Shown here in pieces: positions 257-63,392 of a stretch of 64,000 bases of DNA (its first letter is position 1; every line of letters begins with the position of its first letter). The position numbers were made by a program, and so were the translations under genes. The notes beneath the pieces are model-generated. The model saw nothing but the letters and a program-made list of their open reading frames with translations, was not told the origin of the DNA and made no database searches. Where the stretch lies: contig JAJRUZ010000065.1 of NCBI GenBank assembly GCA_024277525.1, positions 1-64,000 on the forward strand, written 5' to 3'. The stretch is from Caldifarciminota bacterium. GTDB taxonomy: Bacteria; Hydrothermota; Hydrothermia; Hydrothermales; JAJRUZ01.

Positions 257-267
257 GGATTTGAACC
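257..267 (-). promoter_or_regulatory. T-arm-like leader element GG-TTCAAAT-CC upstream of Kelch-like lipoprotein
   Basis: Minus strand AAAAAGGGGGTTCAAATCCCTTTTAAAA, 23 nt before ATG; upstream TTGACA-17-TATTAT promoter. Confidence 0.6.
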
Positions 268-391
268 CCCTTTTTATTTTCTTTTTTCCACTTATATAAT
301 ACCAGAAATTTATCAATTTGTCAAGTCTATGATTTTTCAAAAATAACACATCCCAAATTTGCTGGTTTCTCCATTTAAAATAATTTGAATT

Positions 392-1117
392 TTAATATTT
401 ATTTATGAATAATATCATTTTTTGATTTCTTGGGTGTCCCCAATCTCCAATATAATGAAATTCATAATTTAATTCTTTTGCCAAATAAACAAAAATATGG
501 GGAGAATAATGAAAGGGGTCCCTATAAAGATAAGTCAAAGCACCGTGAGGTTGTTGAACCTCTGGAGGACTTGTATATAAATTATCTACTTCAAATATGG
601 TAGCATAAAATTTTCCATTCTTTTTAAGGACCTTTTTGAGATTTTTTAAACACAGAATTATATAGTTAAGTGAAATATGTGTGAATACTGATACTGCTAT
701 CGCATAATCAAATTTGACTCCAAATTTATCAAATTTAAAAATCTCACTTACTAACAATTTTGGATTTTTGTAAATGAGTTTCTCTCTTTTCAATTCTTTT
801 TTTCCCGCATTTATAAGTTCTCTATCTTTATCTATTCCCATATAATGTCCTTCTTCTAAATATCTTATAAAATGGATTCCTCCTCTTAAGCTTCCACACC
901 CTATATCTAATAAGAAATGATGAGGTAAAAGTCCCTCTTTTTTAAGGAACTCAAATTGTAATTTACCTATTTCTTCCCACAAACCACCTACTGCCTCCCT
1001 ATGCCAATAGGGATTTATAAGTTTGTATAAGGGGAACCTTATAATAGTTTGGTATTTTATTTTTCTTCTTATAAAATCAGGTACCAAAATTCTAAATTTA
1101 TCCATTAATTTTCTCAT
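392..1117 (-). CDS. Class I SAM-dependent methyltransferase
   Basis: LLDIGCGSLRGG motif I and methyltransferase-like organisation. Confidence 0.75.
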   Translation of the reverse strand: MRKLMDKFRILVPDFIRRKIKYQTIIRFPLYKLINPYWHREAVGGLWEEIGKLQFEFLKKEGLLPHHFLLDIGCGSLRGGIHFIRYLEEGHYMGIDKDRELINAGKKELKREKLIYKNPKLLVSEIFKFDKFGVKFDYAIAVSVFTHISLNYIILCLKNLKKVLKKNGKFYATIFEVDNLYTSPPEVQQPHGALTYLYRDPFHYSPHIFVYLAKELNYEFHYIGDWGHPRNQKMILFINKY

Positions 1118-1328
1118 AATTTTTATTTTAAGCTTTCACGTCCACCTATTTCAAAATTTATTAAAATTTTACCTTAAGTTAATAAGCATAATATTATGGA
1201 TTTTTCCCACTATATTACCTTCTTGTTGAATTTCTTTAAAATATGAGTAAAGAGAGGCAATTCTTGAAATAGGAATTTTAAAAAAGAAAAATATTTTAAA
1301 CCTTCCTTTGGGCAAATTTTTGTAAATA

Positions 1329-2486
1329 TTACATAAATTTAAAATTACTTTCTATAAGAGAGTGAAGGAAAGCACCGATTTTTTCATAGGTATAATTTTC
1401 TAAGATCTTCTTTCGAGCTAATTTTCCCTTCTTTTCTAAAATTTTAGGATTAAAATATAAAAAACTGAGTATTTCAGCCAATTTTTTTACATCGTTAGGA
1501 GGGAACACAAAACCGCAGTCTTCTAAAAGTTCGGGAATATCTGAAATTTTAGACGCAACCACAACTTTCCCCATTGCCATTGCTTCCATCAGCTTCATAG
1601 GAACTTGCGCATACGCAAATGGAACTGGTCTTTGTGGTAGCACAATTACATCTGATATATTTATAAAGGAAGGAACCTCTCTCAAAGGTCTAATAGGAAT
1701 AGGAATTAATCTTTTTTTATATTTCCTTATCAAAAAATTACAATAGTCATCATTCGTCATTCCCACGATCATCAATTTCATATTAGGATTGTCAAGCCTA
1801 TCTAAAGCTTCTAATACTACTTCCAATCCTTTATGAGGCTTCGGAAAACCTATAAAGCCTATAACGAATAGATTTGACGGGATATTAAACTTATCTCTCC
1901 AAGCTTTAGCATCATATTTAGAAGGGTCAAATATTGAAATATTTTGAGGGTGTCGAAGCAAAACTCCGCCGAATCTTCTTTGTAAAAATCTGGAGCTTAC
2001 CGTAATTATATCTGCATATTTAACACATTTCTCCATTAAATAAAGCATGGAAATGAGAGGTAAAAGTTCTATTCTTTTGAATTGAGGAAAATCTCTTGGT
2101 TTTTTTAAGAAATAATGACTTTTTATGGGTAAAAATAAACCTAACTCCCAATCATCAATATCAAGAATAAGAGGCTTTTTATATTTCTTTTTTAAATAAA
2201 TTCCGAAACCAAAACTTGTAATAATAGGTTTAAAGGCGTATAATATATCTCCTTCCACAAGGTTTTCTAAATCTTTAAATATAGAAAGTATTTTAATTCC
2301 TGATTTTTTTACTTTAATCCATTTATATTCAAAATCTTGCGGGTCCTGAGATTTCCATAGATTACTGCCTAACATAGGACCCACAACCTCAATTTTATAA
2401 TATCTTTCTAAGGGCTTCAGCACAATATACGCACGATTAATCGCAGCACTTGAAAGATCAGGTATTAAAGCTGTTATTTTTTTCAT
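1329..2486 (-). CDS. Glycosyltransferase family 4-like (GT-B)
   Basis: FNIPSNLFVIGFIGFPKPHKGLEVVLEAL and VPMKLMEAMAMGKVVVASKISDIPELLED motifs. Confidence 0.85.
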   Translation of the reverse strand: MKKITALIPDLSSAAINRAYIVLKPLERYYKIEVVGPMLGSNLWKSQDPQDFEYKWIKVKKSGIKILSIFKDLENLVEGDILYAFKPIITSFGFGIYLKKKYKKPLILDIDDWELGLFLPIKSHYFLKKPRDFPQFKRIELLPLISMLYLMEKCVKYADIITVSSRFLQRRFGGVLLRHPQNISIFDPSKYDAKAWRDKFNIPSNLFVIGFIGFPKPHKGLEVVLEALDRLDNPNMKLMIVGMTNDDYCNFLIRKYKKRLIPIPIRPLREVPSFINISDVIVLPQRPVPFAYAQVPMKLMEAMAMGKVVVASKISDIPELLEDCGFVFPPNDVKKLAEILSFLYFNPKILEKKGKLARKKILENYTYEKIGAFLHSLIESNFKFM

Positions 2487-2691
2487 TTTTTATTTTAATT
2501 ATATCATAAAAAAAATTATATAATTATAAAAATCTACAACAAAAGCGGCAGGATTGTACAGCAAATCAAAAATTTACCAGGGGGAATATATTTCATAAAA
2601 AAGCAAGGGAGGACGGTAAAGCTTATCTCCATCACCCGTTGAAATATTCGCCTTATACAAATTCTTTAAAAAATTAAATAGATTATAAATC

Positions 2692-2721
2692 TTGACTTTC
2701 AAATATTCATTAAAATATTAT
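2692..2721 (+). promoter_or_regulatory. Sigma70-type promoter TTGACT-18-TATTAT
   Basis: -35 at 2692-2697, -10 at 2716-2721; ATG at 2732 implies an almost leaderless mRNA. Confidence 0.5.
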
Positions 2722-2731
2722 TTTTAAAGTT

Positions 2732-62558: not shown

Positions 62559-62580
62559 TTTTTTATAAATTTTTTATTAA

Positions 62581-62591
62581 GGACTTGAACC
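62581..62591 (-). promoter_or_regulatory. T-arm-like leader element GG-TTCAAGT-CC upstream of rpsG
   Basis: Minus strand AAAGGTTCAAGTCCTTAA, 22 nt before ATG; no Shine-Dalgarno. Confidence 0.65.
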
Positions 62592-62595
62592 TTTA

Positions 62596-62976
62596 TCATA
62601 TTAACTCCAATCTCGGAATTTCAGGAGATTCCGGATTCGGGGTAATTACTCTCTCTTTCGGATTAACCACCAAATCAAGGGATTCAAGCACAACTTGACC
62701 TATAAGGGGTTGAGTGCCTTTTTTTTCTTCAATTACTTCAAATATTCCTTCCCTTTCTTTTATTTTTATAAAAACACCTCCGCAAACATTCCTTTTCTCT
62801 ATCCTGTTATCCGCGTATTTTACTTCCACCTCCCTTAATTTTTTTAAATCAAGTTCTTTCACAACATCGGCAGGCAAAGAAGAAAGGGTAGCACCCGTAT
62901 CTATAACTGCTTCTAATTCAATCTCTTTATTATTAAAAGGGGAACGATACTTTACTTTTTCTATAATTTTACCCAT
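62596..62976 (-). CDS. Clan AA (retropepsin-like) aspartic protease, paralogue of 58252..58653
   Basis: IELEAVIDTGATLSSLPADVVKELDLKKLREVEVKYADNR ... PLIGQVVLESLDLVVNP. Confidence 0.85.
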   Translation of the reverse strand: MGKIIEKVKYRSPFNNKEIELEAVIDTGATLSSLPADVVKELDLKKLREVEVKYADNRIEKRNVCGGVFIKIKEREGIFEVIEEKKGTQPLIGQVVLESLDLVVNPKERVITPNPESPEIPRLELI

Positions 62977-62978
62977 TT

Positions 62979-63359
62979 TTATCCCTCTTTCTTCTTCCTT
63001 TTTGTTCCGTACAGACTTCTTGAGCTTGATCTTCCTTCAACGCCCGCACAATCATAAACTCCTCTTACAATGTGATATTTCACACCGGGAAGGTCTTTAA
63101 CACGTCCGCCCCTAACAAGCACAACAGAGTGCTCCTGAAGATTATGTCCTTCACCCGGGATATAAGCAATTATTTCCCTCCCGTTGGAGAGTCTGACTTT
63201 TGCAACCTTTCGTAATGCGGAATTGGGCTTTTTAGGATTCGTTGTATAAACACGTATGCATACCCCTCTTTTTTGGGGACAGCTTTCGAGTGCAGGACTT
63301 TTGGATTTCCTTTTTTTCGGTTTTCTTCCTTTTTTTACCAGTTGATTAATTGTCGGCAT
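62979..63359 (-). CDS. rpsL: 30S ribosomal protein S12
   Basis: [54 protein letters not shown]. Confidence 0.98.
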
Positions 63360-63381
63360 TCAATATCAGTTAAATTTTAAA

Positions 63382-63392
63382 GGGCTTGAACC
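63382..63392 (-). promoter_or_regulatory. T-arm-like leader element GG-TTCAAGC-CC upstream of rpsL
   Basis: Minus strand AAAAAGGTTCAAGCCCTTTAAAA, 22 nt before ATG; no Shine-Dalgarno. Confidence 0.7.

Follow-up and report, generated by a model that had tools for sequence, protein, structure and literature searches.

A hairpin of three base pairs (NGG/CCN') capped by a 7-nt UUCRANY loop, which would represent a minimal copy of the tRNA T-arm within mRNA leaders, is found before ~6-10% of the genes in one family of uncultured bacteria. Its nature as a cis RNA element is well supported by the sequence comparisons, and it probably works in cis on translation initiation, most likely as an enhancer to which the 30S complex or a T-arm-binding protein docks, the direction of the effect and the binding partner being what we infer. 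The current view is that bacteria mark their start sites chiefly with Shine-Dalgarno (SD) sequences, with unstructured RNA or with leaderless 5' ends. In the family described here, which belongs to a phylum without cultured members, a structured signal resembling tRNA has been added at a constant position ahead of this fraction of the genes, which suggests a signal unlike the translation-start signals described for other bacteria, with a gain recent enough that the sister family is without the element. With it one can test how a new signal for initiation comes into being, and whether T-loops in mRNA are readable by enzymes that bind T-arms or by sites on the ribosome.

Host and copies in the window

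The window, meaning the whole stretch of 64,000 nucleotides that was analysed, is contained in a genome of 2.34 Mb (G000). As seen by comparison of EF-Tu, the closest named records are candidate division WOR-3 bacteria; high G+C in the 16S rRNA is a sign of thermophily, and the 64% G+C of this molecule in G000 suggests a thermophile, the host family being probably one of heat-loving, uncultured WOR-3 bacteria. The usual anti-SD is present at the 3' end of the 16S rRNA (reverse complement AAAGGAGGTGATCC). The family bearing the element comprises G000, G001, which belongs to another genus, G002 and G003, while G004 is a member of the same order outside the family.

The first-pass annotation of this DNA had listed eleven minus-strand cores, all of which were found where it placed them, and a weaker twelfth at 27357, which has a loop of 8 nt and does not fit the element. 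The window has 10 exact matches to GGTTCRANYCC, compared to 0.43±0.61 in dinucleotide shuffles, where none of 100 reached 10; eight of these matches are among the annotated minus-strand sites, and the other two, on the plus strand (8420 and 61681), are both antisense within genes. Regarding the third stem pair of the eleven cores, five are G-C, four A-U, one G-U and one mismatched, in agreement with the earlier tally once its twelfth site is removed.

All sites described here are on the minus strand. GGG-TTCAAAT-CCC at 256..268 is 23 nt from the ATG of an ORF that continues past the window edge, and GGG-TTCTATC-CCC at 4872..4884 is 29 nt from ftsZ (3701-4843); the latter copy, in spite of its deviant loop, is genuine, as the ftsZ orthologue in G001 carries GGG-TTCTAAT-CCC. 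The next hairpins are AGG-TTCAAAT-CCT (27291..27303), 21 nt from infC (26725-27270), and GGG-TTGAATC-CCC (30935..30947), 22 nt from an aldehyde dehydrogenase gene (29351-30913). GGG-TTCAACT-CCT (38149..38161), with a G-U third pair, precedes by 23 nt a gene with no family assigned (37383-38126) and is kept in the G001 orthologue of this gene, followed by GGG-TTCAAAT-CCC (41598..41610), 22 nt from a DUF4476 gene (40752-41576). In the translation operons, GGG-TTCAAAC-CCC (59898..59910) is 24 nt from tuf (58660-59874), and two copies stand 22 nt from their genes, AGG-TTCAAGT-CCT (62580..62592) before rpsG (62091-62558) and AGG-TTCAAGC-CCT (63381..63393) before rpsL (62979-63359). The core annotated at 58275 is also present (TGG-TTGAAAT-CCT, 58274..58286), 24 nt from rpsJ (57927-58250), but is a doubtful copy, having a mismatched third pair and lying in the 3' end of the upstream gene 58252-58653. 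Most ribosomal-protein genes of the window are without a copy. No tRNA genes were found in the window by ARAGORN, and no Rfam family, T-box, riboswitches and leaders included, matched within it at gathering score.

The hairpin AGG-TTCAAAT-CCT at 48478..48490 is located 3' of promoter-like sequence and is without a convincing start codon behind it. This region (48300-48600, minus strand), where no convincing reading frame directly follows a good hairpin and promoter-like sequence, may contain a pseudogene or a frameshifted gene, or may give rise to a non-coding transcript. Separately, the minus-strand genes 62596-62976 and 58252-58653 are paralogues encoding small retropepsin-like (clan AA) aspartyl proteases, 53% identical to each other, which interrupt ribosomal-protein operons, one between rpsL and rpsG and the other between tuf and rpsJ; the former is not at that place in G001-G003.

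Position relative to start codons

The exact pattern occurs 252 times in the 2.34-Mb genome (121 forward and 131 reverse), compared to none on either strand for the reversed pattern. When leaders were searched with a score threshold in three family genomes, the element was noticed in 58 of 641, 98 of 976 and 21 of 329 genes, compared to 1, 0 and 0 in the coding control. Copies outside tRNAs are mostly on the sense strand, with the CC 19-28 nt ahead of a start codon; the enrichment at about 20-25 nt that the first-pass annotation had anticipated is present genome-wide. With tRNAs masked and no gene caller used, an ORF of 50 codons or more begins 15-30 nt past the CC in 56 of 68 copies of G000, 82 of 98 of G001 and 17 of 25 of G002, compared to 7-12% at random positions, an excess that ties the element to translation starts. 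Although coding sequence makes up 85% of a 784-kb portion of G000, 72 of the 85 copies there fall between genes. As to orientation, 130 genes are in sense to the element compared to 9 in antisense.

Over 200 leaders, the median distance from CC to start is 23 nt (IQR 21-27), placing the element at about -33 to -22. This median is 23 for promoter-proximal copies, 23 for operon-internal ones and 22 for those inside an upstream CDS; among operon heads, operon-internal genes and 35 copies overlapping the gene before them, it hardly differs. What stays constant, whatever stands upstream, is how far the element lies from the start codon, which points to translation initiation. About 60-70% of the copies are at apparent operon heads and TATAAT-like hexamers cluster 0-30 nt upstream of the element, which would then be within the transcript and near the 5' end of many mRNAs. 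An element of mRNA stability, where transcripts would be shielded at the 5' end by the hairpin or processed at a site that it marks, would agree with the many copies lying within ~30 nt of a -10-like sequence; however, a spacing fixed to the start codon, which is the same inside operons and within upstream genes, as well as the weak barrier offered by a 3-bp hairpin, make this explanation improbable.

Replacement of the SD was also considered and rejected, as genes with the element use an SD at least as often as other genes; the CC-to-start distance is ~24 nt when an SD is present and ~21 nt when it is not. The element resembles SD sequences, standby sites and translational enhancers in its link to the start codon and in its expected action on 30S recruitment, and differs from the SD in being a structured hairpin located farther upstream and coexisting with it. 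In addition, GGTTCAAATCC is not complementary to the anti-SD of the 16S 3' end, and a search of the 16S-containing locus for complementarity to the element gave only short matches of 7-8 nt, at chance level.

The hairpin and its likeness to the tRNA T-arm

That the element is an RNA stem-loop and not a DNA operator, the latter having been the alternative offered by the first-pass annotation, is supported by the covariation of its third pair, its sense-strand bias and the trade-off between stem and loop. The third pair is Watson-Crick in 138 of 185 copies, compared to 69±6 when partners were shuffled among copies, the largest of 2000 shuffles giving 89; G000 alone gives 51 of 60, compared to 22±3.5. 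All four Watson-Crick types are represented, and some of the other 47 copies have G-U. As the copies mostly come from unrelated genes, shared descent is a small concern for this test. The second pair is an invariant G-C, so no covariation can show there, and no comparable signal was seen beyond the third pair in the 185 copies, nor a larger conserved structure around the hairpin; a longer stem was thus rejected. Copies with an A-U third pair have a canonical loop in 42 of 52 cases (42:10), compared to 37 of 72 (37:35) for those with G-C (p=0.0012). This association of a weak stem with a canonical loop is a stability trade-off, as expected of a folded RNA.

A transcription or sigma factor binding partly palindromic DNA could be proposed, considering the imperfect inverted repeat formed by the core and the majority of copies at apparent operon heads. 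Nevertheless, the spacing is set by the start codon and not by the promoter, copies occur within operons and coding sequence, and this operator was rejected on the covariation and orientation, with a very small probability left to it.

The likeness to the T-loop, as proposed in the first-pass annotation, was recovered without assuming any loop sequence: among 169 paired NGG-N7-CCN leader sites, U54 is present in 148, U55 in 141, C56 in 126, A58 in 148 and Y60 in 155, while position 59 is unconstrained, as in the tRNA T-loop. The element therefore shares with the T-arm the UUCRANY loop (free N59, Y60), the closing pair G53-C61 and a G-C second pair, and departs from it in having 3 bp instead of 5, no cloverleaf, a location in mRNA leaders and a preference for A57. 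The predicted energy of the hairpin is -0.5 to -2.2 kcal/mol at 37 °C, and it is unfolded at 60 °C, as calculated by nearest-neighbour rules that exclude the tertiary stabilisation of the T-loop. Being marginal at 37 °C and predicted to be unfolded at 60 °C in a thermophile-like host, it probably requires a bound partner, or a T-loop modified as in tRNA, in order to fold.

Pseudouridine synthases also have sites in mRNA: those of TruB in E. coli have a GUUC core, and the sites of TruB/Pus4/TRUB1 are reported as scattered (PMC13062092). The element has the same GUUC core in a T-loop-like hairpin, where pseudouridylation is putative, and differs in being a selected hairpin at a fixed distance from the start codon. 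It is also similar to ribosomal-protein leaders and T-box riboswitches, being a 5' leader RNA with some copies ahead of translation genes; unlike them, it reaches ~6-10% of genes, with no Rfam match in the window and no larger conserved structure. No such leader element was found in the open-licence literature searched. To our knowledge, no genome-wide, start-codon-spaced mimic of a tRNA arm has been described in bacteria; the function of the element is proposed by inference.

Phylogenetic range, genes and candidate partners

The pattern followed by an ATG at 14-28 nt gives 152, 110, 72 and 125 matches in the four family genomes, compared to at most 18 in each of 143 other genomes of the phylum (13 in G004), where many of the matches are tRNA genes; thus, among 147 WOR-3-phylum genomes, none beyond these four exceeds the tRNA background. 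In 400 kb of G004, 1 of 336 leaders has such a hairpin. Among 80 named loci from many phyla, no copies were found except in tRNAs and coding sequence, and viral contigs searched with one strict pattern gave no match.

Comparing G000 and G001, 18 of 294 orthologues share the element, while 9 and 11 have it in one genome each (p=5e-15). Of the element genes of G000, 18 of 27 keep it in the orthologue from the other genus, at a median protein identity of 66% and with a diverged surrounding leader, and in several orthologue pairs the third pair changed on both sides. The conservation expected before rpsL held within the family, with AGG/CCT in G000, G001 and G003 and TGG/CCA in G002, but not outside, as the rpsL leader of G004 lacks the element, indicating a feature of family level. 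In G000, an extra gene stands between rpsL and rpsG and the latter has an element to itself, whereas in G001-G003 rpsG comes directly after rpsL and has none. Either one family acquired the element as an innovation or it has kept it as an oddity.

This fixed start spacing and conservation in orthologues also rule out dispersed tRNA remnants or mobile repeats. That the hairpins are passive modification sites of TruB (or TrmA/TrmI), or tRNA-derived repeats with no function in the leader, finds a basis in the GUUC core reported for the E. coli TruB sites (PMC13062092); however, the location at start codons, the conservation in orthologues of ~66% identity and the compensatory changes point to selection, and such a passive origin is hardly credible.

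The genes carrying the element encode proteins of translation and transcription (S7, S12, L7/L12, EF-Tu, IF3, RpoA and RpoB, with S10 doubtful), metabolic enzymes (GAPDH (gap), enolase (eno), fructose bisphosphatase, SAM synthetase (metK), alanine dehydrogenase and methylmalonyl-CoA mutase), as well as FtsZ, SecD, an SPFH protein and secreted proteases. With this diversity of translation, metabolic and secreted products, autoregulation of single genes is unlikely, and the suggestion of autoregulation in the manner of ribosomal-protein leaders is not borne out, as the element precedes ~6-10% of all genes, whose products are unrelated. A hydrophobic N-terminus is more common in the proteins of element genes in G000 (43% vs 19%, p=4e-5), with a weak excess in G001 (32% vs 23%, p=0.05). 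Although the list gives the impression of abundant proteins, this is not confirmed by codon adaptation to ribosomal-protein genes, which is slightly lower in element genes (0.708 vs 0.724; 0.757 vs 0.770). Codon bias was thus discarded as a proxy of expression, the effect being small and in the wrong direction, and an enhancer of highly expressed genes would be suggested only by the gene names.

If the element acts in translation initiation, the hairpin would be placed just outside the mRNA channel, at the exit side of the 30S subunit, where platform proteins or the 16S rRNA of the ribosome, or else a protein that binds T-arms, may hold it, so that initiation would be raised on selected genes in addition to the SD and not in its stead. 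TruB is a natural suspect for an enzyme that would see these hairpins. The family has one copy each of TruB, TrmI and RluA-type enzymes, and so do most relatives in which the element is missing; no family-specific duplication of TruB, TrmI, TrmA-type or RluA-type enzymes was found; TruB alone, being single as in the relatives tested, cannot account for the restriction to the family. Likewise, no loss of S1 or S21 was found in the family, both being present as in relatives, and no ribosomal change therefore explains why solely this family uses the element.

A T-arm-binding enzyme that modifies or handles tRNA could instead bind beside the ribosome entry and repress or tune ~150-200 mRNAs, perhaps competing with free tRNA. 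Such a regulon would fit the strict T-loop consensus, the position of the hairpin just beyond the ribosome footprint and the presence of TruB and TrmI, enzymes acting on T-arms; it is an unlikely reading, since the genes are not of one pathway and no dedicated paralogue of the enzymes named above sets the family apart. Returning to a role in initiation, it is conceivable, though we give it only a modest chance, that the T-arm has become a genome-wide initiation signal, where the mRNA T-loop would be modified and bound as in tRNA, and the modified hairpin would dock on the initiating 30S and couple initiation on selected genes to the tRNA-modification machinery or the supply of tRNA.

Two further observations concern individual genes. 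The adjacent SHOCT-like_DUF2089-C genes L004:401-1114 and L004:1135-1482 have one leader hairpin apiece. In the window, 63577-63948 (minus strand) shows a weak, sub-cut-off match to type IX secretion C-terminal sorting domains (Por_Secre_tail, CHU_C), and a clear domain of this type is present in the element gene L173:11671-13887.
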